Shown here in pieces: positions 4,092 to 20,810 of a stretch of 21,013 bases of DNA. The notes under the pieces are model-generated. The model saw nothing but the letters and a program-made list of their open reading frames with translations, was not told the origin of the DNA and did no database searches. Origin of the DNA: a virus; IMG/VR virus record IMGVR_UViG_3300032286_000487, positions 1 to 21,013 of that record. One strand, 5' to 3'. The position numbers and the translations under genes were made by a program. Every line of letters starts with the position of its first letter. Position 1 is the first letter of the stretch.

Positions 4092-5009
4092 GTGCCGACA
4101 CTCGCTCGCACCGTCGTAATTCCAGCAAGCGGCGACGCCTTTCTGCAATGGCAGACAGCGGAGCCTTCTGATGTGCTGGATTACGTTCTAGACGCGACGG
4201 CGGCGATTCCTGGTGATTTGATTGCGACGCTCTCGGTTTCGATCTTCCCGTCTGGCGTTGGAGAAATGACCGTCTCGGCGCTCGCGGCGGTTCTGAATGT
4301 TGCGACGATCCGGCTATCGGGTGGGGTGGCCGGGCGGCTCTACAGCATTCGCGTGGACGCCACGACGCAACTCGGGCGGCTTTATTCGTGGGTGACCTAC
4401 CTGCCCGTCATGGACCCACGCTCCAATATCGCGCCTCCGCCAGCCCCAGTGGCGGATTTCGGTGCGGCGGTTGTGTGGACGTATTCCGGCCCGGTTCGCC
4501 CGCTCCCCGCCGTGACGACTACACCAACAAACCCCTGGCCCCCTACCGACGATGCGCGCCTGATTACGATTCCGCTCAACGGCAAAGCATACTTGCAATG
4601 GCCGGTGGCGAGGGTTGCAGACTTCCTCGATTACAAACTGGACGTGACGGCGCCCGTTGTTCAGAACGGTGACGAAATCTCTAGCATTCTGTTGAGCATT
4701 GCGCCTTCTGGCTCGGGAGAACTCACGGCAACCGACCTTTATTCTGAGGGCGGATTAATCAAGGCGAACTTGTCTGAAGGATTGCCCGGCAGGCTTTACC
4801 GCATTAGAATAGATGTCAATACCCTGCTCGGGCGCGACTTTTCCTGGGTGGTAAATCTTCCAATTGAGGCAGATTATGCGGTATATTCCGTCAACCCTCC
4901 ACCAGACCCCGGTTTTGGCCAAGCGTCTCAATGGGCGTTGATGGTGCTAGAAAATGGCCAGGGGTTTTGGCGGTTGGAGAGTAATCTTGGCAATTGGGCT
5001 TGGGGCTGA
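4092..5009 (+). CDS. Tandem two-domain Gp77-like fibre adaptor protein
   Basis: This 305-residue protein starts at GTG one base after the fibre gene's stop; the ATG at 4090 is in another frame that closes within ten codons. It contains two copies of the adaptor-like domain seen at 1861-2262. Copy 1 (about residues 18-115) has 'EPSDVLDYVLDATAAI', 'FPSGVGEMTV', 'LSGGVAGRLYSIRVD' and 'TQLGRLYSWV'. Copy 2 (about residues 170-265) has 'VADFLDYKLDVTAPV', 'APSGSGELTA', 'LSEGLPGRLYRIRID' and 'TLLGRDFSWVVNLPI'. Pro-rich linkers ('APPPAP', 'NPPPDPGFG') follow each copy. The C-terminal 30 residues are Trp-rich ('GFWRLESNLGNWAWG'). A role linking fibres to the tail is inferred from the family and from flanking fibre genes. 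Confidence 0.72.
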   Translation: MPTLARTVVIPASGDAFLQWQTAEPSDVLDYVLDATAAIPGDLIATLSVSIFPSGVGEMTVSALAAVLNVATIRLSGGVAGRLYSIRVDATTQLGRLYSWVTYLPVMDPRSNIAPPPAPVADFGAAVVWTYSGPVRPLPAVTTTPTNPWPPTDDARLITIPLNGKAYLQWPVARVADFLDYKLDVTAPVVQNGDEISSILLSIAPSGSGELTATDLYSEGGLIKANLSEGLPGRLYRIRIDVNTLLGRDFSWVVNLPIEADYAVYSVNPPPDPGFGQASQWALMVLENGQGFWRLESNLGNWAWG

Positions 5010-5012
5010 CAA

Positions 5013-7415
5013 ATGACAAATATCAGGATCAGCGACGCAACGCAGACGACGCCGCAAGGCACCGATCTGATGCCGATTGCGCGTCCAGGCTCAACGACCG
5101 CATACTCAATTCAATTTCAGGACATTGGCCCCTTTGCGCCAACCGGCCCCACAGGGCCGACCGGAGCGACAGGCCCCACTGGGGCAGCCTCAACGGCGGT
5201 TGGCCCGACCGGAGCGACCGGAGCGACCGGCCCCACAGGGCCGACCGGAGCGACAGGCGCAGCATCGACGGTGGCTGGTCCTACCGGCCCGACCGGAGCG
5301 ACAGGACCGACCGGCGCCACTGGCGCGGCATCGACCATTGTAGGACCTACCGGCCCGACGGGATCGACAGGCCCCACTGGCGCGACCGGCCCGACTGGTC
5401 CAACGGGTCCGACAGGGGCGGCATCTATCGTTGCAGGACCAACCGGCGCTACGGGTCCGACCGGCGCAACCGGAGCGACAGGCGCAGCATCGACGGTGGC
5501 CGGTCCTACAGGCCCTACGGGCGCGCAAGGTCCAACTGGGGTGCAAGGTGTGACCGGCCCGACTGGTGAGCAAGGTACTACCGGCCCCACGGGGCCGATA
5601 GGCGCAACAGGCGCAGCATCTACGGTGGCTGGTCCTACCGGACCGACAGGCCCGCAAGGCACTTCGTCCAGTTTGTTTTTGTATCAAGCGCGCACAACCA
5701 CTACAACTGGCTATCCAAGCAACGGCCACATTTCTTGGAACAACGCCACTCAAATTAGCGCAACAAGCATTAACGTCAGTCACTTAACCAATAATAATGA
5801 AGATATTGACATTTTTTTAGCATTGCTCACGCAAACTGAAACAATTATCATTCAAGATCAAAACGCAAGTGCCAATTTCCAAAAATGGACAATTTCCGGC
5901 ACGCCAACCAACACTAACCCTGGCACTTCCACTAGTTATTGGACTTTCCCAATCACGCTTGTGTCTTCGGGTGGAACCGGGACAACGGGTTTCGCCAATA
6001 ACCATGATATATTTTTGGCGCTGGTGAATGGTGTAACTGGGCCTACAGGTTCCGCTGGTCCTACTGGTCCAACCGGCGCGACCGGCGCGAATGGTGCCAC
6101 AGGCCCGACTGGTCCTACTGGCGCGAATGGTGCAAATGGCGCCACTGGCCCAACCGGCCCTACAGGCCCAACTGGCGCAGCATCTTCCGTAACCGGCCCG
6201 ACGGGCGCAACAGGGGCGGCTGGCTCGGCTTCTATCACAGTCGGCACCACAACGATAACGAGCGGCATCAGCGGGCGCCTTCTTTTTGATAATGCTGGTG
6301 TGGTTGGTGAGGTTGCTGTTGGCGCTAGCGGCAACGTGCTGACAAGCGATGGCTCCACTTGGTCAAGTGTGGCGCCGACCGCGAACACTGAACTTAACGC
6401 TATGTTGTATGGCGATGGTTCTGATGGCGATTTAGTTATGGCCGCAAGCGGAACCGTAACTTTGACGCGCGATCAGTATTATACAAATGTTTCGTGGCCT
6501 TCAGGTTCAACCGCAACATTTTGGCCAGTTGGATACCGTATTTTTGTTTCAGGCACGCTTGACCTCACAAATGCCCCGGCTGGAGCTTTTTCCCGCGCAA
6601 TCGCTAATAACGGAGGGACTGGCGCAGTAGTTGGTTCAGGCGGCGCTAGTGGAAGCGCAGCGTCTTCATTCACGGTTGGTGGAAGCAACGGTGGAAGCAC
6701 TGGTGGGGGTGGCGGTACTGCCGCTGGTGCCGCTGGCAACGCTGGAGCGACAAACGCCGCTAATGGTGGCGGTAGCGCCATCTCTGGAGCGGGAGGTCTA
6801 GGAATTTCAGGCGCTGGCGGCGCCGCTGCCACAGGACCATCTCCAACAACCGCAGATATTCGCATGGCAAAACTCGATTTAATCCGTGGCGCAACAATCC
6901 TACTTGGCGGCATGGGTGGTGCTGGCGGCGGCGGCGGTGGAGGCGACGGAACGGCGGGGTCTGGTGGTGGTGGCGGTGGTGGTGGCGGCATGCTCATTGC
7001 TGTTTTTGCCAAAACTATCCAACGCGGCACATCTACAAACGTATGGTTTAACGCTGTTGGCAGTAATGGCGGCAATGGCGGTTCTCCCGCAGCGGGCAAC
7101 CGTGGTGGAGGAGGTGGCGGTTCAGGCGGTGGCGGCGGGTGGATTTATGTCGTGTACAACACACTGTTGGGCACAGCGAACGCCAATGGTATTGCCGCCA
7201 ATGGCGGCAACGGCGGCACTGGCGGCAACGGCACTGGCACAGGTCGTGGTGGCGGTGGCGGTGGCGGTGGTGCTGGCGGAAGGATAACATTGATAAACGC
7301 ACTGACTGGAGCGACATCAGTATCTGTGGGTGGCGCAGGTATTGCTGGCAGCACAACAGCCACTACCACAGGCGGCGCTGGGGCCACCGGAACAACCCTA
7401 ACGGCATCGTTGTAA
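5013..7415 (+). CDS. Collagen-like, glycine-rich phage fibre protein
   Basis: This 800-residue protein reads as a chain of modules. Residues 1-42 ('[20 protein letters not shown]' then '[12 protein letters not shown]') are a fibre N-terminus typical of virion collagen-like proteins. Residues about 43-216 are Gly-Pro-Thr / Gly-Ala-Thr collagen triplets broken regularly by 'GAAST(V/I)(A/V)G'. Residues 217-339 are a globular insert containing '[20 protein letters not shown]' and '[13 protein letters not shown]'. Residues 340-405 are a second collagen block with Asn ('[13 protein letters not shown]'). Residues about 406-480 contain the fibre motif '[11 protein letters not shown]'. The last 270 residues are extremely Gly-rich with short hydrophobic strands ('[11 protein letters not shown]', '[10 protein letters not shown]', 'GRITLINAL'). 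A trimeric collagen-helix shaft with a polyglycine-type tip is the likely structure. It probably acts as a receptor-binding fibre. Confidence 0.85.
5139..5660 (+). repeat. Collagen triplet repeat block 1 (GPT/GAT)
   Basis: Nine-base units encode Gly-X-Thr, mostly GGCCCGACC- and GGAGCGACC-like, grouped into larger units separated by 'GAASTVAG'. Because the units are GC-rich and in phase, long false reading frames appear on both strands here. Confidence 0.9.
6030..6230 (+). repeat. Collagen triplet repeat block 2 (GPT/GAN/GAT)
   Basis: A second, shorter run of Gly-X-Y triplets follows the 123-residue globular insert. It differs from block 1 in using Gly-Ala-Asn triplets. Confidence 0.88.
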
Positions 7416-7427
7416 GGGTAATAAGAA

Positions 7428-7727
7428 ATGACAATCACGCGCCCACTCATTCAAATCTATAATACAGAAGCCGGTCAAGTCACCGTTCGTGAAATGAACG
7501 ATGCGGAGTATTCGGCTTGGCTATCAGAGCAAGATGCCGCGCAAGCTGCGTTTGTGAGGGCTGAGCGCAGCAAGCTCCTTGCAGAAACTGACTGGCGGGT
7601 ATTGAGGGCCTTGGAAGATGGACACGGCCTTGACTTTGATCTTGCTGTTTACCGGCAGGCGCTTCGGGATGTTCCAGAGCAGCCGGGATTTCCTTACAAC
7701 ATCGTTTGGCCGGGATTACCACAATGA
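7428..7727 (+). CDS. Phage tail (fibre) assembly chaperone-like protein
   Basis: This 99-residue protein has the hallmark C-terminal half of the phage tail assembly chaperone family I know as Phage_tail_APC: 'RAERSKLLAETDWRVLRAL' (about residues 44-62), then 'YRQALRDVPEQPGFPYNIVW' and a final 'PGLP'. The N-terminal part ('PLIQIYNTEAGQVTVREM') is a short variable strand region. It sits directly downstream of the large fibre gene, the usual place for a fibre-folding helper. TAAGG and other A/G-rich bases 6-10 nt upstream of ATG 7428 act as the ribosome site. Its stop overlaps the next ATG. The role in fibre folding is inferred from family and position. Confidence 0.8.
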   Translation: MTITRPLIQIYNTEAGQVTVREMNDAEYSAWLSEQDAAQAAFVRAERSKLLAETDWRVLRALEDGHGLDFDLAVYRQALRDVPEQPGFPYNIVWPGLPQ

Positions 7728-7954: not shown

Positions 7955-8484
7955 ACCTTCTTCAAGCGCAATATGTGGCGGCGATCAGCACACCCGGCGA
8001 CATTAACGAACACCTGCAAGCCCTTTTTGATTTAGCCGATGAGTGCGAACACGTCACAGAATTTGGCGTCCGCTGGGGTTCAAGCACAACCGCTTTCCTG
8101 GCGTCTCGGGCATGGCTTGTCAGCTATGACATCGCTCCGCACCCCGCTGCGTTACACTTGTTTGAGATAGCGCGGGAAACGGGGAAGCAGGCAAAATTTA
8201 TTGAAGCCAACACTCTAACGCTCGACGTTATAGCCGGAACCGATCTGCTATTCATCGACACCCTGCACACATACGCGCAACTTCGGCATGAGCTATTTAC
8301 GTTTCACAATAGCGTTTTGAAATACATCGCCCTGCATGACACCGTGACCTTTGGTCAGACGGGTGAGGATGGCGGCCCCGGCTTGATCCTGGCTGTGTGG
8401 GAGTTCCTCACGACATTTCCTGAATGGCGAATCAAAGCCCATTATACCAACAACAACGGCTTGACGGTATTGGAACGCGCATGA
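7951..8484 (+). CDS. Class I SAM-dependent methyltransferase (Methyltransf_24-like)
   Basis: This 177-residue protein starts at GTG 7951, overlapping the previous TGA (GTGA). Residues 34-45 'HVTEFGVRWGSS' form the glycine-rich SAM-binding motif after the first strand. 'SYDIAP' (58-63) follows as the acidic end of strand 2, 'TDLLFIDTLHTYAQLRHEL' (97-115) is the strand-4 region with Asp103 and His106, and 'YIALHDT' (125-131) is strand 5. The C-terminus 'YTNNNGLTVLER' is typical of methyltransferases found beside phage glycosyltransferases. It ends in an ATGA overlap with the glycosyltransferase gene, which argues that both act on the same substrate. The methyl acceptor (sugar or protein) is unknown. 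Confidence 0.8.
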   Translation: MNLLQAQYVAAISTPGDINEHLQALFDLADECEHVTEFGVRWGSSTTAFLASRAWLVSYDIAPHPAALHLFEIARETGKQAKFIEANTLTLDVIAGTDLLFIDTLHTYAQLRHELFTFHNSVLKYIALHDTVTFGQTGEDGGPGLILAVWEFLTTFPEWRIKAHYTNNNGLTVLERA

Positions 8485-10214
8485 TTGCGCTCGTCGTCTG
8501 CACGGTAGGCGGCGAGCATCTTTCCCGGTTGATGGGGTCAGTGGACGATCACGCGCCCGACGACGTTGAAGTATGGGTGTTCAACGGCACTCAAGGCAAT
8601 TTTGGTGATGCCTACAACTACGCCATGCGTGAGGCGTTCGAGTGCTATGACGAAATCCTGATTGCCAACGACGACATCATTCTAACCCCCTTATCCATCC
8701 GCAAGCTGTTGGAGGACGTGGCTGCGTTGAAACGAACTGTGCCGCGCCTTGGGTTGGTAGCGGCGCGCTCCGATAACGTGCGCGATGTTCAACGCAACCT
8801 CTTTGCTGATCGGCCGGTGGAAGTCGCGGCGGTTTCGCCCATCCTGGCGTGGATCAGCAAAGAGGCATTTGAAGCCGCACCATTCCCGCCCATCAATTGG
8901 TATTCCGACGATGTGCAATGTGCTGACCTTCGCGCGCTCGGCTATCAGCATTTTATCTCTCGGTCTTTCGTCTTCCACGTCGGCTCGGCTACTATCGGAC
9001 ACGACCACCAACGCCATATCGACGAGGCGCGACCCTGGATCGTTGCGCACCGGCCGCATTACGCTGAACAATGGGGACTGATTGTGAAGCCACGCTTGAA
9101 AATTGCTGTCTATGCCATCAGCAAAAACGAGGCTCAATTCGTTGAGCGGTTTTGCAAATCGGCGGAAGACGCTGACTTGATTTTAATTGCCGACACCGGC
9201 AGCACGGATGAAACGGTCACGCGGGCGGTGGAGTGCGGCGCCATGGTGCGCAACATCCATATCAAACCCTGGCGCTTCGATCTAGCCCGTAATGCTGCCT
9301 TGGCCATGATTCCCGCTAACATCGACGTGTGTATCAGCCTCGACCTAGACGAGGTTCTTGAACCCGGCTGGCGCCAGGAAATCGAACGCCTATGGAAGCC
9401 TGAGACGACCAACCTTTGGTATCTGTTCGACTGGGGTTCCGGGTTAAGATTCCCGCACCATAAAATCCACAGTCGCAATGGGTATCACTGGCACCATCCC
9501 TGCCACGAAGAAATCCGCATTGACCCACGGATGAAAGAAGTGACCGCGCATTCGGATATGCTGCTGGTGTCGCATTACCCTGACGCGACCAAGAGCCGTG
9601 GCCAATACATGGAAATTCTGGAAGCGGCGGTCAAAGAGGACGCCAGCGATCCCACGCACTATTTCTACTTTGCTCGCGAACTGACCTTCTGCCGACGGTG
9701 GGCGGAGGCGCGGGATGCGTTGACGCACTACCTGGGCATGAACGCGGCGAGCAACCAGAACGAGCGCTCTTATGCCATGCGCCTGCTGGGCCAGACGCAT
9801 GAGGAATTGAACGATCAGGCTGGCGCGGAGAAGTGGTATCTTCAGGCGGTAAGTGAAGCGCCGAATACGCGCGAGCCTTGGTGCAATCTGGCCATGCTGA
9901 TGTACCGGCAAAGCCGTTGGCATGAGTGCTATGTATATGCGCACCGCGCCCTACTCATCACAGTTCGCTCCCTGGTTTACACAGGCGATCCGGCAGTCTG
10001 GGGTTACTATGCGCATGATCTGCTGGCCGTAGCGGCATGGAATATGGGCTTGAAAGATGAAGCCAAAAAGCAAGCCAAATTGGCTTTGGCTCATTCTCCC
10101 GACGATTTGCGCCTAAAATGCAATCTTGCTTTTATGGAGAACGAAAATGTTTGCAGCACTGATACCAGCGCTTCTCCCGATCCTGGGCGACACGTTGAAG
10201 AGGTTCTTTCCTGA
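8481..10214 (+). CDS. Two-domain glycosyltransferase with C-terminal TPR-like region
   Basis: I start this gene at ATG 8481 (ATGA overlap), giving 577 residues. Residues 1-200 form a GT-A-like domain with 'VVCTVGGEHLSRLMGSVDDH', 'GNFGDAYNYAM', the acidic 'IANDD' (61-65) and an acceptor-side 'NWYSDDVQCADLRALGY'. Residues 205-380 form a second, family-2-like domain: 'KIAVYAISKNEAQFVERF', 'DTGSTDET' (238-245), 'KPWRFDLARNAAL', 'SLDLDEVLEPGW' with DLDE at 288-291 as metal-binding candidate, and 'GYHWHHPCHEEI'. From about 390 on, paired helices ('ARELTFCRRWAEARDALTHY', 'REPWCNLAMLMYRQSRWHEC') look like TPR units. It probably transfers sugars onto virion or host surface targets together with the adjacent methyltransferase. 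The substrate cannot be read from sequence. Confidence 0.85.
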   Translation: MIALVVCTVGGEHLSRLMGSVDDHAPDDVEVWVFNGTQGNFGDAYNYAMREAFECYDEILIANDDIILTPLSIRKLLEDVAALKRTVPRLGLVAARSDNVRDVQRNLFADRPVEVAAVSPILAWISKEAFEAAPFPPINWYSDDVQCADLRALGYQHFISRSFVFHVGSATIGHDHQRHIDEARPWIVAHRPHYAEQWGLIVKPRLKIAVYAISKNEAQFVERFCKSAEDADLILIADTGSTDETVTRAVECGAMVRNIHIKPWRFDLARNAALAMIPANIDVCISLDLDEVLEPGWRQEIERLWKPETTNLWYLFDWGSGLRFPHHKIHSRNGYHWHHPCHEEIRIDPRMKEVTAHSDMLLVSHYPDATKSRGQYMEILEAAVKEDASDPTHYFYFARELTFCRRWAEARDALTHYLGMNAASNQNERSYAMRLLGQTHEELNDQAGAEKWYLQAVSEAPNTREPWCNLAMLMYRQSRWHECYVYAHRALLITVRSLVYTGDPAVWGYYAHDLLAVAAWNMGLKDEAKKQAKLALAHSPDDLRLKCNLAFMENENVCSTDTSASPDPGRHVEEVLS

Positions 10215-14421: not shown

Positions 14422-14609
14422 AGCACGATCCGGCGCTGATTGAAGCCGTCGCTAAGGCTCTGCACGACGCGACTGGTATGCGCTCTGTTCGTTGGGCTGA
14501 CATTGGAAAAACAGAGCAGGCGTTTCGTTTAAGTCAGGCGATCACGGCGCTTGATGCAATGAAAAAAATGGGAAATGGAGAAGAACAATGGCTGACACAA
14601 CAAAACTAA
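14418..14609 (+). CDS. Small phage protein, 'AVAKAL...W' type
   Basis: This 63-residue protein is joined by ATGA to the gene before it and overlaps the next by 22 bases. 'DPALIEAVAKALHDATGM', a Trp ('VRWADIG') and 'TEQAFRLSQAITALDAMKK' follow a pattern I have seen in many small, unnamed phage proteins (Ala-Lys-Ala-Leu helix, Trp, then Gln-x2-(Phe/Tyr)-Arg-x2-Ala helix). No function is assigned to that pattern. Confidence 0.55.
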   Translation: MKHDPALIEAVAKALHDATGMRSVRWADIGKTEQAFRLSQAITALDAMKKMGNGEEQWLTQQN

Positions 14610-15268
14610 ATCAATTCATCGCCGAAGGCAGGCTGATCCGTAATGACTGGACCGGCATTGACGATCATGGCCGCGAGACGGCGTGTTTGCTGGCAGCTGT
14701 GTCCCCTGAAGTTACGGATGATGGCAATCCTGGCGCCTGCCCCGCAGACATCATGCCTCAGTGGCTTGCGCATCTGACGCCATGGATGGATGACGCGGGC
14801 AGCGAAGAGGCTTGGCTGCCCATGGTCAAGCGTTACGCTGCCGTTGCCGGCCGCTGGCATGTGCTGAGTGACGAGACGTGGCGCAGACTTAATTACACCG
14901 CACGGCGTATCGCGGTGGAAGATTGCCTGCCTCTGGCTGGAAGCGCAGCACCTGCGGCGGAAGGTGTGTTGGATTTGCTGCGCCGGGCTGAGCAAGGTGC
15001 CCATGTGTTGGAATCAGAGTGGGTTGCTGCGCAGGCTTCTGCGTGGGCTGCTGTTGCGGATGCTGAACGGGCTGCTGCGCGGGCTGCGGTGGCTGCGTGG
15101 GCTGCTGCGGATGCTGCGCGGGCTGCTGCTGCGGTTGCTGCGCGGGCTGCTGCGGATGCTGCGCGGGCTGCTGCGGGTGCTGCGGCTGTTGACCGCATCA
15201 CCGCCGCCATCCTGACGGCAATTGAACAAGCCTGTGATGCAGCGGAGAGGGAGAAGAACAATGGTTAA
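14588..15268 (+). CDS. Unknown protein with long alanine-rich helical repeat tail
   Basis: Start ATG 14588 has GGAGAAG seven bases upstream. Residues 1-130 of 226 form a mixed domain ('FIAEGRLIRNDWTGIDDHGR', 'CPADIMPQWLAHLTPWMDD', 'WLPMVKRYAAVAGRW', 'WRRLNYTARRIAVEDCLPL'). Residues about 145-205 are an Ala-rich tract built on 'ADAARAAA' and 'AAWAA' units, likely one long helix, encoded by GCTGCTGCGGATGCTGCGC-like DNA repeats. Ala/Arg/Trp helical tracts of this type occur in phage proteins of unknown role. The C-terminus returns to normal sequence ('ILTAIEQACDAAEREKN'). Confidence 0.65.
   Translation: MADTTKLNQFIAEGRLIRNDWTGIDDHGRETACLLAAVSPEVTDDGNPGACPADIMPQWLAHLTPWMDDAGSEEAWLPMVKRYAAVAGRWHVLSDETWRRLNYTARRIAVEDCLPLAGSAAPAAEGVLDLLRRAEQGAHVLESEWVAAQASAWAAVADAERAAARAAVAAWAAADAARAAAAVAARAAADAARAAAGAAAVDRITAAILTAIEQACDAAEREKNNG
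15040..15190 (+). repeat. Trinucleotide-like GCT/GCG/GCC repeat coding Ala-rich helix
   Basis: Imperfect units such as GGATGCTGCGCGGGCTGCTG recur at least three times here, separated by variants. They code for 'DAARAAA' blocks. Such tracts are prone to in-frame gain or loss of units. Confidence 0.75.
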
Positions 15269-15560
15269 ACCAGCAAAAGACGAAGCCGAACTGATTGAGC
15301 AAATGGCGGCGCGCAGACAGCGCGGCTGCCAAACGATCTGCCCACATTCAAATCAATATTGTCCGTGCCGCGAACCCAGTGTGAACGCCATCGCCGCCAT
15401 CCGCGCGGCGGGGTGGGCTGTGGTGCCGGTTGAGCCGACTTTCAACATGAAAAGCGAAGGATCAGTCGCCATGGTTAAGCTTGGGTATCTTCCATCTCCT
15501 GGTGAAGTGGCTGAAATCTATTGCGCCATGATCGAAGCATCGCCGGGGGTGAAGCCATGA
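15261..15560 (+). CDS. Unknown phage protein with Cys cluster and 'VVPVEPT...M' module
   Basis: ATG 15261 has GGGAGAAG directly upstream and lies eight bases before the previous stop. The 99-residue product has a Cys-rich N-terminal half ('GCQTICPHSNQYCPCRE', a possible metal site) and a C-terminal half of a recurring phage type: 'AIRAAGWAVVPVEPT', then Met, 'GYLPSPGEVAEIYCAMIEAS'. The protein ends 'PGVKP', the first of a series of (E/G)VKP endings that overlap strong ribosome sites. Function unknown. Confidence 0.65.
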   Translation: MVKPAKDEAELIEQMAARRQRGCQTICPHSNQYCPCREPSVNAIAAIRAAGWAVVPVEPTFNMKSEGSVAMVKLGYLPSPGEVAEIYCAMIEASPGVKP

Positions 15561-15766
15561 GCGATGAGAAAGGGGCGGCGATTCAAACTCTCGAATACGC
15601 TAGAGGCTACGGTCAAGCGTGGCGAGAGTGGTCCGCATGCGCTGACGTGCCGAACCCCCGTGACCGCGAGTTTTTAGAGCGCGCCCGAGTGCAAATGGGT
15701 GAGCGCAGTAGTGAGGCTGTCCGAGTGCTGCGTCAATTTCGCGCAGCGCCGGGAGTGAAGCCATGA
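15557..15766 (+). CDS. Small unknown protein of the EVKP array
   Basis: This 69-residue protein starts with 'MSDEKG' at an ATGA junction and ends 'PGVKP' at another. The middle ('YARGYGQAWREWSACADVPN' and 'REFLERARVQMGERSSEAVR') is charged and helical with two Trp. No family is recognised. Confidence rests on coupling and the strong ribosome site on both sides. Confidence 0.6.
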   Translation: MSDEKGAAIQTLEYARGYGQAWREWSACADVPNPRDREFLERARVQMGERSSEAVRVLRQFRAAPGVKP

Positions 15767-16020
15767 GCGGCCCGGAAACGACCGAGACGCGCGCCATTAT
15801 TGCGCTTGTCCGGCCGGTGGCCAGCAAGATGGCGCACCTTAGCATTGATGGCAGGATCACCCTGCTCTGCGCCTTGCTGGCCCAGGAAATATGCAACCTG
15901 CCGCCCACTGAGCGCGACGACGAGTTGCGTCGGGTGCTGCGAGAATTGCCCAGCATACTCGACGCGACGGAATGCGGAATGCGGCAGGCGTTCGTTTTGA
16001 ACGCGAAGGCGGAGCTATGA
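15763..16020 (+). CDS. Small helical unknown protein of the EVKP array
   Basis: This 85-residue protein starts 'MSGPETTETR' after GGGAGTGAAGCC. It consists of three or four predicted helices: 'AIIALVRPVASKMAHLSID', 'ITLLCALLAQEICNLPPTER' and 'DELRRVLRELPSILDATEC'. Unlike its neighbours it ends in 'NAKAEL' rather than VKP, and its stop is separated by one base from the next ATG. Not recognised. Confidence 0.6.
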   Translation: MSGPETTETRAIIALVRPVASKMAHLSIDGRITLLCALLAQEICNLPPTERDDELRRVLRELPSILDATECGMRQAFVLNAKAEL

Positions 16021-16021
16021 C

Positions 16022-16414
16022 ATGACCCAAGGCGAGAACAAGACCACCGGCTGGCCAAACCCCGACGCGCCCGGCGTGCCGCTGCATCCTGAGCGGGATG
16101 GGTGGCATTGGATTGTCGGATGGAGTGACAAACTATTTGTTGCTGAGTGGGATTCTGACGAAAAGGATTATGTGTGGTTTGACGGTGGCGATGATTCGTC
16201 AGGCATAGTCGAAAACGGTTGGACTTACGCTGGCCCAGTCCTAACCCCATCCGAGGCGGACACTCTCCGCGCCGAGAGCGCGCGGTTGAGGCATTTGATG
16301 CGCGAGACTGTGAAATGGTGGGACTGGTGGCAAGCCAATCCTACCGACCACTGTGCCTCGCTGCCGGATGACCGCATCAATGACATGCGTGAAGCCCTGG
16401 AGGAAAAGCCATGA
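16022..16414 (+). CDS. 'WPNPDAPGVPL' phage protein, paralogue 1
   Basis: This 130-residue protein begins with 'GWPNPDAPGVPLHPERDGWH' (residues about 10-29), a module common in unnamed phage proteins, apparently often alphaproteobacterial. It continues through an acidic Trp-rich middle ('WSDKLFVAEWDSDEKDYVWF') to 'YAGPVLTPSEADTLRAESAR' and a short coiled-coil-like end. The gene at 17982-18311 is a paralogue, sharing the first module almost base for base and the 'GP-LTP-EAD-RAE-ARLR' region. A GGAG lies nine bases before the ATG. Function unknown. Confidence 0.65.
   Translation: MTQGENKTTGWPNPDAPGVPLHPERDGWHWIVGWSDKLFVAEWDSDEKDYVWFDGGDDSSGIVENGWTYAGPVLTPSEADTLRAESARLRHLMRETVKWWDWWQANPTDHCASLPDDRINDMREALEEKP
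16062..16101 (+). repeat. 40-bp paralogue block, copy 1
   Basis: The block encodes 'PDAPGVPLHPERDG' and matches 18001-18040 at 39 of 40 bases, including third codon positions. Confidence 0.85.
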
Positions 16415-16707
16415 GCCGCGACATAACAAGAGCAATTAAGGCGGCGGCGGAAGCAATCAGCAATCGTCACGCGAAAAAAGCTGGAGGTTGCTGGGCTCCG
16501 TCTGAAATTCCCGATCAAGGGGAGTGCGCGGATGCAAATTGCTATTGTGCAAAGCGCGCAGGGCGAGACGCAGCCGTTGCAATCGCCGCGTTTTTGGAAG
16601 CGCTGCCGCCGAGGCTAATGCTGCCAATATCGCAGACGCATGTTGCATGGATCGGTAATCAAGGCCGCCTTGCCCTAATCGCAGCGGTTAGGGAGGTGAA
16701 GCCATGA
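16411..16707 (+). CDS. Small unknown protein with central Cys cluster
   Basis: This 98-residue protein starts at an ATGA junction ('MSRDITRA') and ends 'REVKP'. Helix 'AIKAAAEAISNRHAKKAGG' leads to 'CWAPSEIPDQGECADANCYC', four Cys that could bind a metal, then 'AGRDAAVAIAAFLEALPP' and a C-terminal part with a Trp. Four Cys with a flanking basic helix suggests a small zinc-stabilised fold. The protein is not recognised. Confidence 0.6.
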   Translation: MSRDITRAIKAAAEAISNRHAKKAGGCWAPSEIPDQGECADANCYCAKRAGRDAAVAIAAFLEALPPRLMLPISQTHVAWIGNQGRLALIAAVREVKP

Positions 16708-17105
16708 GCGACAATGAACCTGAAGTCTGCGCTTATGATGACAAAAGCACCAGCCTGCGCGGTCTGTGTGACGCGGCATTGGCCGCATCAAAGGCTTATG
16801 CGGATGCGCCGACAGAAGAGGCTGAGTATGAAGCATGGAATTGTCTGCAAGATATGCGCCGCGCGTGTGATGCAAAAACAATTGATTGGATGCTGAACCA
16901 AGCCGACACTCTCAAGAGCGACCTCACGCATTGGCAAGAGGTCTGCTACGCCTTTGAGTTTGATCTTCAATCTGCTCGCGCCGAGAACGCGCGGCTGCGG
17001 GAGGCGCTTTTAGCTTTGTTGGATAAGGAGGAAGTCCAGGACTTCGGTGAGTGGCTTGAGGCGCGGATGAAACAAGCCCGCGCAGCCTTGGAGGTGAAGC
17101 CATGA
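16704..17105 (+). CDS. Small acidic coiled-coil protein with 'AENARLREAL' end
   Basis: This 133-residue protein starts 'MSDNEPEVC' behind GGGAGGTGAAGCC and ends 'ALEVKP'. An acidic N-terminal half ('CDAALAASKAYADAPTEEAE') precedes 'WMLNQADTLKSDLTHWQEVC' and the leucine-zipper-like 'SARAENARLREALLALLDKE'. The DNA coding for that last element is identical over 32 bases to the gene at 17982-18311. Oligomerisation through this helix is likely; no function is known. Confidence 0.6.
   Translation: MSDNEPEVCAYDDKSTSLRGLCDAALAASKAYADAPTEEAEYEAWNCLQDMRRACDAKTIDWMLNQADTLKSDLTHWQEVCYAFEFDLQSARAENARLREALLALLDKEEVQDFGEWLEARMKQARAALEVKP
16977..17008 (+). repeat. 32-bp paralogue block, copy 1 (coiled-coil segment)
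   Basis: The block encodes 'RAENARLREAL' and is base-for-base identical to 18204-18235. A diverged third copy starts at 16268. Confidence 0.85.
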
Positions 17106-17314
17106 GCGATTTGGATGATGCATGGCAAGGCTTGATTCAAGCGGCCTATAGATGGGCAACACAACACATGGACCAATGGGAAAAAGTAAAATTCCAGACT
17201 GAGTTTGGTATGGTGTACCTGACTATAGACCGTAAGGGCGATGGCTACCCGCTTTCGTTTGATTTTGTGGACGCCGACGGCAAACCTGCTGCGGACAGGG
17301 AGGTGAAACCATGA
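17102..17314 (+). CDS. Small unknown protein of the EVKP array
   Basis: This 70-residue protein starts 'MSDLDDAW' and ends 'DREVKP', with full junction motifs at both ends. 'LIQAAYRWATQHMDQWEKVK' is an amphipathic aromatic helix, followed by beta-like 'FQTEFGMVYLTIDRKGDGYP' and 'LSFDFVDADGK'. Not recognised. Note that the two terminal tetrapeptides are set by the junction DNA rather than by the fold. Confidence 0.6.
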   Translation: MSDLDDAWQGLIQAAYRWATQHMDQWEKVKFQTEFGMVYLTIDRKGDGYPLSFDFVDADGKPAADREVKP

Positions 17315-17538
17315 GCGATTGGTCATGCCCGAAATGCAATCTGCGCTCAGGCCAAACCTGCTCTGATCAAGATTGTCCTGGTATCCCAAAACGACGCTTA
17401 ATGATCCAGCCTCTCCCAGACCCGGCCCTGCGCGGCATTAGCAGCGTCGTGGGCTGTATCTGCCCCCCAACCAGCGAACAGACGTGTCAAGGACCGCTTT
17501 GCCCTCGTAAAAATCATCTGAAGGATGTGAAGCCATGA
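17311..17538 (+). CDS. Twin Cys-cluster (zinc-ribbon-like) small protein
   Basis: This 75-residue protein has two similar Cys clusters: 'CPKCNLRSGQTCSDQDCPG' near residues 6-24 (Cys-x2-Cys-x7-Cys-x4-Cys) and 'CICPPTSEQTCQGPLCPR' near 49-66 (Cys-x-Cys-x7-Cys-x4-Cys). Each has Thr-Cys and a final Cys-Pro, so it looks like an internal duplication with two metal sites. The junction motif starts it ('MSDWSC') and it ends 'KDVKP'. Function unknown. Confidence 0.65.
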   Translation: MSDWSCPKCNLRSGQTCSDQDCPGIPKRRLMIQPLPDPALRGISSVVGCICPPTSEQTCQGPLCPRKNHLKDVKP

Positions 17539-17762
17539 CGGCACGGTGGGAAGTGTTTGAAAATCCTGACGCTGATATGGGCGGATGGATTTCTTACATC
17601 GAGAACGACACGAATTACCTAGGCGGAGAGTGGCACGCATCAAAGGCCGCAGCAGAGGCGTATGCCCAGAAAGTAGCGGCAGAATACAACAATGGCCTTC
17701 GCCCACTACCAGAACCGCCAAGTGCTGGGCCGCTGTTTTTTTCTATGAACCTACGGAGGTGA
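17535..17762 (+). CDS. Small unknown protein; C-terminus probably altered by a T7 run
   Basis: As read, the product has 75 residues: 'WEVFENPDADMGGWISYIEN', 'GGEWHASKAAAEAYAQKVAA' and a Pro-rich end 'PLPEPPSAGPLFFSMNLRR'. The stop at 17760-17762 falls before the next start, breaking the array's ATGA rule. A run of seven T at 17736-17742 lies just before. Re-reading one base there gives the end 'FFFYEPTEVKP' and a stop at 17768-17770 that overlaps the next ATG, exactly like the other genes. So a natural -1 frameshift, or an indel in the homopolymer, is plausible. The gene family is not recognised. Confidence 0.6.
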   Translation: MTARWEVFENPDADMGGWISYIENDTNYLGGEWHASKAAAEAYAQKVAAEYNNGLRPLPEPPSAGPLFFSMNLRR

Positions 17763-17766
17763 AACC

Positions 17767-17985
17767 ATGAGCATTTCTTGGGTCCGCAAGCGGTATGGAG
17801 TTGCTGCCAAGGTCGGTGGGCGTGTGGAATATAGTGGCTGTGGTAAGCCAGAGATGGGCACGATTACAGGCACAATCTCTGGCCATCTGCGCATCAGGCT
17901 CGATGGGCTGAAGCATTCCCTGCCATTCCACCCGACGTGGTGCCTGCGATACTTGCCACGGGCGACTTCGGAGGCGAAGCCATGA
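17767..17985 (+). CDS. Small beta-rich unknown protein of the EVKP array
   Basis: This 72-residue protein starts 'MSISWVRKRYGV' behind GGAGGTGAAACC and ends 'SEAKP', a variant of the usual tail. The sequence 'VEYSGCGKPEMGTITGTISG' then 'HLRIRLDGLKHSLPFHPTWC' is beta-rich and looks like a small SH3-type barrel, a fold common in little phage proteins. That is a guess from strand spacing. No function known. Confidence 0.6.
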   Translation: MSISWVRKRYGVAAKVGGRVEYSGCGKPEMGTITGTISGHLRIRLDGLKHSLPFHPTWCLRYLPRATSEAKP

Positions 17986-18311
17986 GCGATTGGCCCAATC
18001 CCGACGCGCCCGGCGTGCCGCTGAATCCTGAGCGGGATGGCCATCATTGGCTGATGGGCGTCCCGGGCATCCCATTGGCACCATATTGGGACGAGCGCGC
18101 CTATGCTTGGGCGGCACCGGGATTGCGCGCAGTTTTGCCCGGAGAGGTGGCTGAATATATATATCTCGGCCCTTGCCTGACACCCGCCGAGGCGGATGCC
18201 ATCCGCGCCGAGAACGCGCGGCTGCGGGAGGCGCTGCTGGATGCTCAAGGCCCCATGTATGTTGAGTTTGTTCGCCGTCTGCCAGTTTTTCGGTGTGAGG
18301 AGGAGCCATGA
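17982..18311 (+). CDS. 'WPNPDAPGVPL' phage protein, paralogue 2
   Basis: This 109-residue protein begins directly at the module ('MSDWPNPDAPGVPLNPERDG'), then a middle unlike paralogue 1 ('GIPLAPYWDERAYAWAAPGL'), then 'YLGPCLTPAEADAIRAENAR' and 'LREALLDAQ', sharing the coiled-coil element with the gene at 16704-17105. Thus one protein shows the N-terminal block of one neighbour and the C-terminal block of another, which supports module exchange. It ends with 'EEEP', not VKP. The start is at an ATGA junction. Function unknown. Confidence 0.65.
   Translation: MSDWPNPDAPGVPLNPERDGHHWLMGVPGIPLAPYWDERAYAWAAPGLRAVLPGEVAEYIYLGPCLTPAEADAIRAENARLREALLDAQGPMYVEFVRRLPVFRCEEEP
18001..18040 (+). repeat. 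40-bp paralogue block, copy 2
   Basis: This matches 16062-16101 with a single base change (C to A, His to Asn). Confidence 0.85.
18204..18235 (+). repeat. 32-bp paralogue block, copy 2 (coiled-coil segment)
   Basis: This is identical in all 32 bases to 16977-17008, 1.2 kb upstream. Confidence 0.85.
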
Positions 18312-19941: not shown

Positions 19942-20033
19942 AATTGCCGATTGCCTTATTGCATCCGTCGCGGCTTATGTTGTAAAAACATTTTTGCGCC
20001 CGGCATTTGGGTGGCTTTGGGAAAGGAAAAAAG
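19942..20033 (+). promoter_or_regulatory. Intergenic gap before the Sak4-like gene, possible promoter
   Basis: This 92-base AT-richer gap contains TTGCCT (19952-19957) and, 18 bases on, TTATGT (19976-19981), a loose -35/-10 match, plus an AAAAACATTTTT palindrome and a strong ribosome site GGGAAAGGA before ATG 20034. It is the only clear break in the 19.3-21 kb gene run. Confidence 0.3.
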
Positions 20034-20810
20034 ATGGCGATTTCAATGGCGTCTCTGCGCCGCAGCACGGAGGTGAAAGCTCCGCGCATCATGCTTCACG
20101 CGGTGCATGGTATCGGCAAAACCTCGCTTGGTGCTGGCATGCGCAAGCCGGTGATCCTCCAGACCGAAGACGGTCTCGGCATGATCGACATGCCTACATT
20201 CGGGCTGCTCAAGACTTATTCCGAGGTGATGGACGCCGTCGCCTCGCTCTACAGCGAAGCGCACGAATTCGAAACCGTGGTGCTAGACAGCCTCGACTGG
20301 CTGGAGCCGATGGTGTGGGTGGAGACTTGCCGCCTCAACAATTGGAAAGACATCGAGCAGCCCGGCTACGGCAAGGGCTACGCCGCCGCCTTGGACACAT
20401 GGCGCGGTATTCTTGATGGATTGAACGCACTCCGCGATGAGCGCAAAATGACCATCACGATGATTGCGCACACGGAACCGAAACGATTTGAAAGCCCCGA
20501 GGTGGAAGCCTACGACCGTTACGCGCCCAAGCTGCAAAAGGCCGCAAGCGCCTTGGTGCAAGAGCACGTCGATTGCGTCTGGTTTATGAATTACCGCGTG
20601 TCGGTGGTGAAGGACGACAAGAAAGACCCCAGCAGCCGGGCGCGTGGCGTTGGGGGCGGACAGCGCGTTCTTTACACTACCGAGCGCCCTTCACATCTGG
20701 CAAAAAACCGTTACCGGATGCCGGAATCCATCTCGCTGCCGGATGATCCGGAACAGATGTGGCCGACCATCGCCCAGCACATTCCCTATTTCGCAACCAG
20801 CAAGGAATAA
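20034..20810 (+). CDS. Sak4-like RecA-fold ATPase (AAA_24), phage recombination
   Basis: ATG 20034 is preferred over an upstream in-frame start because GGGAAAGGA sits at the right distance. The 258-residue protein has a short N-terminal strand ('KAPRIMLHAVHGIGKTSLGA') holding the Walker A motif Gly26-Ile-Gly-Lys-Thr30, 'ILQTEDGLGMID', Walker B 'TVVLDSLDWLEPM' with Asp85, 'MTITMIAHTEPKRFESPEVE' and a C-terminal part with 'LYTTERPSHLAKNRYRMPES'. This is the layout of the ATP-binding phage proteins (AAA_24) that include Sak4-type single-strand annealing recombinases. Neighbouring rusA and DUF669 genes fit that role. It has no C-terminal DNA-binding domain like bacterial RecA. Confidence 0.82.
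   Translation: MAISMASLRRSTEVKAPRIMLHAVHGIGKTSLGAGMRKPVILQTEDGLGMIDMPTFGLLKTYSEVMDAVASLYSEAHEFETVVLDSLDWLEPMVWVETCRLNNWKDIEQPGYGKGYAAALDTWRGILDGLNALRDERKMTITMIAHTEPKRFESPEVEAYDRYAPKLQKAASALVQEHVDCVWFMNYRVSVVKDDKKDPSSRARGVGGGQRVLYTTERPSHLAKNRYRMPESISLPDDPEQMWPTIAQHIPYFATSKE

Follow-up and report, generated by a model that had tools for sequence, protein, structure and literature searches.

The window analysed here is the complete 21-kb IMG/VR virus record IMGVR_UViG_3300032286_000487 (21,013 nucleotides), which encodes tail-fibre-like, glycosyltransferase, endolysin, metallophosphoesterase, RusA-like and Sak4-like proteins. Towards its right end, an operon of small genes runs from a left to a right anchor gene, with eleven genes between them (Table 1). 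At nine starts in this operon the same sequence recurs, which we call the junction seam. The seam is made up of the last 4–8 codons of one gene, a strong Shine-Dalgarno (SD) sequence and an overlapping ATGA start. It takes the form GCGCAGCC(Y)TGGAGGTGAAGCC directly before ATGAGC, or GCAGCAGCGCCGGGGGTGAAGCC before ATGAGC, and is about 20 to 35 nt long overall. Among the proteins of the array, no matches were identified in Pfam above cut-off or in NCBIfam, and only the gene at 17767 and the left anchor resemble PHROG families, both of unknown function. A blastn search of the array against 50,697 phage records gave no match, and the right anchor gene was found in only one weak record of that set.

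Nine plus-strand copies of GGAGGTGAAGCCATGAGC were identified in the window at up to 3 mismatches, where shuffled sequences gave a mean of 0.02 and never nine. The matches begin at the first base of each seam listed in Table 1 (at 17090 within the long form of copy 5), and they coincide exactly with the nine starts at which a sequence-only reading of this DNA had placed a common junction. That reading also described a protein end of the EVKP type overlapping the next ATGA at every start. This holds for eight of the nine copies, each with a 4-base overlap, and fails at 17767. There, the preceding gene (17535–17762) ends in NLRR* inside the SD (CGG AGG TGA) and does not overlap the next start; EVKP is read in the adjacent frame, with a run of seven T lying just upstream. 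This one-frame offset is either a real frameshift or an assembly error. The repeated junction itself stands. The proposed length of about 18 bases was too short, and the seam also includes coding bases that the ribosome does not need. The protein upstream of 15557 most likely starts at ATG 15261 (MVKPAKDEAEL), given that MSEPAKDEAEL is aligned in 15 relatives.

All comparisons were made with metagenome contigs, many of them partial, in which genes were predicted with a home-made caller and lineages were told apart by visual inspection of their backbone and recombinase genes. A survey of overlap distances covered 127 loci (L numbers below) with 1543 called genes, and most of these loci were collected by the right anchor gene rather than by the motif; the comparison leaves out 132 further right-anchor relatives. 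An 18-mer scan of viral contigs gave 70 loci, mostly with one or two copies. Several of these are unrelated phages with the core only, and were used as convergence controls, not as relatives. Three control and motif sets were chosen with the 18-mer itself, so that the core is biased and the flanks are not. Proteins were considered unrelated on the basis of pairwise-unrelated sets; single linkage had merged chimeric proteins. Among genome contigs that carry a relative of the right anchor, including those of alphaproteobacteria, no junctions were found within 2 mismatches of the motif.

The seam is not an ordinary ribosome site of these phages. Four-base overlaps are bimodal in their distance from GGAGGTGAAGCC, with 66 at 0–2 mismatches and a separate hump at around 7. 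Window starts outside the motif copies have SD matches of 0–6 nt and 3–12 differences from the 16-base motif, and most have weak SDs (0–5 nt) and 6–12 differences. The nearest to the motif are the next junctions of the same operon, at 18308 (3 differences), 18625 (4) and 18828 (4); the ATGA or GTGA overlaps at 7724, 7951, 12104, 14418 and 19579 differ at 7–9 positions.

DNA common to unrelated genes reaches upstream of the SD, into GCGCAGCC, which encodes ..RAAL or ..AAAPG. When only junction pairs with unrelated proteins on both sides were compared, identity at −20 to −16 was 0.55–0.69 for motif pairs, against 0.25–0.29 for other overlaps and 0.21–0.30 for unrelated core-only phages. Across the core it is mostly 0.85–1.0 (by selection), and it is at background from +7 on. 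GCAGC occupies −20 to −16 in 11 of 17 mutually unrelated upstream proteins versus 5 of 109 (P = 2e-8), and where the extension encodes Ala-Ala the first codon is GCA in 9/9 (P = 4e-8 against 15% usage). Exact runs of at least 23 nt are shared by 35 of 865 unrelated pairs (maximum 35 nt), compared with 0/29807 (maximum 15 nt, the longest run at non-motif overlaps) and 0/66. These alignments show common sequence beyond the needs of the ribosome.

The genes that lie between the seams change. Relatives with 81–95% protein identity in the backbone (e.g., L085, L087 and L102) have one gene between the anchors versus the eleven of the window, and in L115, L124 and L221 there are none, the left anchor being joined to the right anchor directly by a seam. 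The end of the left-anchor family (APGVKP, running into ATGA) is followed by at least nine unrelated successor families, including directly the fixed downstream gene. Pairs with the same upstream family share the downstream family in 17 of 189 cases at motif junctions, against 347 of 1051 at other ATGA overlaps (partner retention was also obtained as 17/90 versus 347/626). The 17311 cassette has different neighbours in the window, L110, L138, L164 and L166. Different genes between identical junctions are what the sequence-only reading predicted for cassette exchange. It had named fixed gene order, with junctions no more alike than other ribosome sites, as the pattern that would count against it; instead, mismatch counts are bimodal, other window starts are unlike the seam, and gene order changes among relatives.

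Breakpoints of homology also fall on the seam. L085 and L102 are 93% identical over most of the backbone; in the variable part only short islands of homology are left, one of them 38 nt at the seam, and homology resumes at −13 of the right-anchor ATG. L110 and L166 share 92.5% identity over exactly one cassette, and an inter-lineage block in L005 and L079 extends from −30 to +10. A second seam, LRAENARLREAL, lies inside genes, is no ribosome site and bounds exchanged blocks. It belongs to a cluster of 28 similar sites in 19 loci, and the form CGCGCCGAGAACGCGCGGCTGCGGGAGGC (RAENARLREA) is present in two perfect copies in the window, in two otherwise different genes. Blocks that run from the junction seam to the internal seam were found in L092/L139, L091/L232, L110/L232, L089/L164 and L087/L089. 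The block in L088 and L139, which belong to different lineages, starts at the internal seam, ends 8 nt beyond the next ATG and has 98.7% identity over its 227 nt. The best seam-to-seam blocks between otherwise different lineages are 92–99% identical. In all, 38 of 208 inter-lineage block ends lie on either seam, compared with a null mean of 16.8 (maximum 30 in 2000), for blocks that are mutually non-independent and were defined with an identity cut of 88% set after the data were seen.

We consider it probable that the genes of this hypervariable operon are shuffled by homologous recombination of the annealing type, and that this takes place at short standard seams which double as ribosome sites. 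If two seam-bearing phages meet in one cell, annealing-type recombination between seam copies could connect the end of any gene with the start of any other. Insertion, loss or replacement of a gene or block would then leave the reading frame and the ribosome site undamaged, and half-genes would be swapped likewise at the internal seam. The EVKP and GVKP protein ends would then be by-products of a DNA seam. The comparisons argue strongly, if indirectly, for the earlier suggestion that the junction acts as a recombination seam, and the seam itself is probably the place of strand pairing. Phage annealing proteins (Sak4, ERF or RecT-like) may act there, judging from the genes these phages carry. 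Most of the phages have a gene for such a protein: Sak4-like proteins are encoded by phages of the window's group and by L139 and L221, an ERF protein by L088, L092 and L164, and weak RecT matches were identified in L041 and L096. HK620 Sak4 has been shown to anneal single strands in vitro (PMC5928155). Minimal pairing lengths of 23–27 bp for Redbeta and 31–34 bp for RecA are reported (PMC3945230), and the seam is long enough to reach both.

Several observations weigh against this explanation. Breakpoints at gene edges could also result if genes were joined at random and selection then favoured an intact frame and ribosome site. Many other breakpoints coincide with additional conserved islands, located in the left-anchor gene and its upstream neighbour, which makes the system finer-grained than one of whole-gene cassettes. 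Several junctions have the core-only sequence. The longest exact run between seams inside the window is 20 nt, and deletion within one genome would thus be weak. Not all seam carriers have Sak4, and L110 (58 kb) gave no Sak4, ERF or RecT match. The random-joining explanation can be put in full: genes are joined illegitimately, the only products to survive are those in which the frame is unbroken and an ATGA overlap carries a strong SD, and the junctions converge on one sequence without any pairing there. It draws on the fact that the core GGAGGTGA is an ideal SD, that the overlap fixes the frame so that the upstream end must read E-V-K-P, and that the core can arise by convergence, as it occurs without the extension in the unrelated phages L020, L060, L069, L073 and L074. 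Yet it leaves unexplained the −20 to −16 bases, with the same codons in unrelated genes, and the exact runs of 23–35 nt. Nor does it account for the fact that elsewhere in these phages the overlaps have SDs that are weak and different, or for an internal seam that is no ribosome site. We regard ribosome-site selection alone as unlikely.

The C-terminal peptide (RAALEVKP or AAAPGVKP) could itself be functional, e.g., as a docking or stability tag, since it is common to many unrelated proteins. However, the synonymous GCA codons are common to them as well, and for this reason the tag was rejected. Peptide variants are tolerated (GVKP, EAKP, DVKP, EEKP, GVKS, EMKP), and at 17767 the seam is kept although the gene ends in NLRR, with EVKP still legible in the adjacent frame. 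A functional peptide is very improbable. An integron-like, site-specific system with a recombinase that recognises the seam would fit the directional cassettes with one gene per seam, but it is the least credible of the explanations and was likewise rejected. No tyrosine recombinase (PF00589) was found in 17 records, many of them fragments, and no serine recombinase in 12, although the records include some of 50–60 kb. Folding of the seam is no better than for shuffled sequences (z +0.7 to +1.6), with no attC-like folded site; in addition, the seam is protein-coding, and breakpoints also occur at the second, different seam. 

A broader form of seam-based recombination can be suggested tentatively, with somewhat less than even confidence: a natural standard-part assembly system of several lineages, in which the two seams, one at gene ends and ribosome sites and the other an in-gene coiled-coil seam, delimit gene and half-gene parts. 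Any lineage that has an annealing recombinase might trade such parts; the seams would then serve as an exchange format for the whole community, maintained because shuffling genes for host takeover or counter-defence is advantageous.

Table 1. Features of the seam-bearing operon and the candidate recombination gene (window coordinates)
Feature	Position	Strand	Basis or comparison
Left anchor gene, MVKPAKDEAEL..ASPGVKP	15261..15560	+	alignment of 16 members; different next genes in relatives
Seam copy 1, GGGGGTGAAGCC before ATGAGC	15545..15562	+	motif match; 4-base overlap
Cassette gene, 69 aa	15557..15766	+	relative in L041 (78% aa identity), followed there by another gene
Seam copy 2, extended form; upstream protein end RAAPGVKP	15751..15768	+	motif match
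Cassette gene, 85 aa, no relative found	15763..16020	+	direct, PHROG and Pfam searches
Cassette gene, 130 aa, WPNPDAPGVPLHPERDGWHW family	16022..16414	+	238 nt 88.7% identical to L092, another lineage
Seam copy 3, extended form, REALEEKP	16399..16416	+	motif match
Cassette gene, 98 aa	16411..16707	+	no family match
Seam copy 4, perfect core	16692..16709	+	motif match
Cassette gene, 133 aa	16704..17105	+	last ~46 residues end other proteins in L058/L164, L027/L091
Internal seam RAENARLREA, copy 1, perfect 29 nt	16977..17005	+	sequence match
Seam copy 5, long form	17079..17109	+	31/31 nt identical to L079:2082-2112; unrelated genes on both sides
Cassette gene, 70 aa	17102..17314	+	no family match
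Seam copy 6	17299..17316	+	motif match
Cassette gene, 75 aa, Cys-rich MSDWSCPKC	17311..17538	+	in L110, L138, L164, L166, L168 with other neighbours
Seam copy 7, GGATGTGAAGCC before ATGACG	17523..17540	+	motif match
Cassette gene, 75 aa, NLRR* end inside next SD, outside EVKP frame	17535..17762	+	
Seam copy 8, non-overlapping	17755..17772	+	motif match
Cassette gene, 72 aa, phrog_2730 (unknown function)	17767..17985	+	PHROG match
Seam copy 9	17970..17987	+	motif match
Cassette gene, 109 aa, family of 16022 gene	17982..18311	+	protein comparison
Internal seam copy 2, perfect 29 nt	18204..18232	+	sequence match
Cassette gene, 106 aa	18308..18628	+	91% aa identical in L138, there after the 17311 cassette
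Right anchor gene, MITQLNPPIP, 68 aa	18625..18831	+	212 viral stretches and 34 genome contigs hold relatives
Gene for a Sak4-like single-strand annealing protein (candidate agent of recombination)	20007..20810	+	phrog_124, E 3.6e-37

The left-anchor family has three conserved islands with highly variable stretches between them in the 16-member alignment. The islands are MSEPAKDEAEL, LAAIRAAGWAVVPVEPT and AAAPGVKP, and between them divergence is complete even where backbones are 93% identical. Ahead of the left anchor an Ala-rich protein of 226 aa (14588–15268) with low-complexity GCTGCGCGGGCTGCT repeats is inserted; it was not seen at this position in the relatives closest to the window, and its N-terminal part is like L025. 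Elsewhere in the window are an 800-aa tail fibre with collagen-like GPTGPTGAT (5013–7415) and a 596-aa protein with a glycosyltransferase-like region (8424–10214; phrog_13126, moron category). The protein at 4092–5009 contains two copies of a ~125-aa domain of which the whole 1861–2262 protein is one (~42% identity).

Some known systems share features with this array. The T4-type mobile regulatory cassettes of Arbiol et al. (2010) reportedly shuffle small genes as modules by means of short repeated regulatory DNA, and their units are said to be promoter stem-loops between genes, whereas here the unit is a coding ribosome-site overlap. In cluster K mycobacteriophages, start-associated sequences (SAS) and extended SAS (ESAS) are likewise repeated, directional and located at the starts of small genes of different families, and were suggested by their authors as possible recombination targets (PMC3203893). 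There, however, the extended site of a gene family is usually retained from genome to genome (PMC3203893), whereas the seam changes partners and encodes the end of the previous protein. The 13-bp SAS GGGATAGGAGCCC has no match in the window at up to 2 mismatches. Ea22 proteins of the lambdoid exo-xis region have a conserved N-terminus, a coiled coil, unrelated C-terminal parts and a common last tripeptide (PMC7093339); the family gave no match to the array proteins. Lambda ea22 and HK620 hkaG (L248 1–120 and L249 2794–3510) both end in ..GIRIKGE*, encoded by a stretch of DNA common to the two, GGCATTCGCATCAAAGGAGAGTGAGAT. In HK620 the next gene, hkaF, has AAAGGAGAG as its SD, and this role of the shared DNA may explain the common +GE end, which is of unknown significance according to PMC7093339. 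In HK620 the codons of the IKGE end double as the following gene's SD at one junction; here there is a series.

For lambdoid phages it was proposed that mosaic modules are exchanged by homologous recombination at the short conserved sequences lying between them (Susskind and Botstein 1978; Clark et al. 2001, HK620), as cited in PMC3029335. The array is an unusually clear variant of this "short conserved boundary sequence" model of phage mosaicism: the modules beside the boundaries are non-homologous between phages with a shared backbone, and short conserved DNA lies at the borders of the exchanged modules. In contrast to the lambdoid boundary sequences, a single operon here has one sequence of 20–35 nt at many of its junctions, where it links genes that are non-homologous. 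The nin gene junctions of lambda and HK620 have no such long common seam, and lambda shows just a loose GC(N)GCATGA tendency. What is new is the repeated joining of unrelated genes by one common seam, with an extension beyond function, an in-gene partner seam and cross-lineage exchange.

The origin of mosaic boundaries in phages has long been disputed between pairing at short shared sequences and random joining followed by selection. With many natural junctions that carry one defined seam, of a length at the pairing limits of RecA and annealing proteins, the question becomes testable by simple crosses. These junctions suggest that a ribosome site can double as a recombination site, so that swapped genes stay in frame and translated, and they point to a route by which unrelated proteins acquire shared C-termini.

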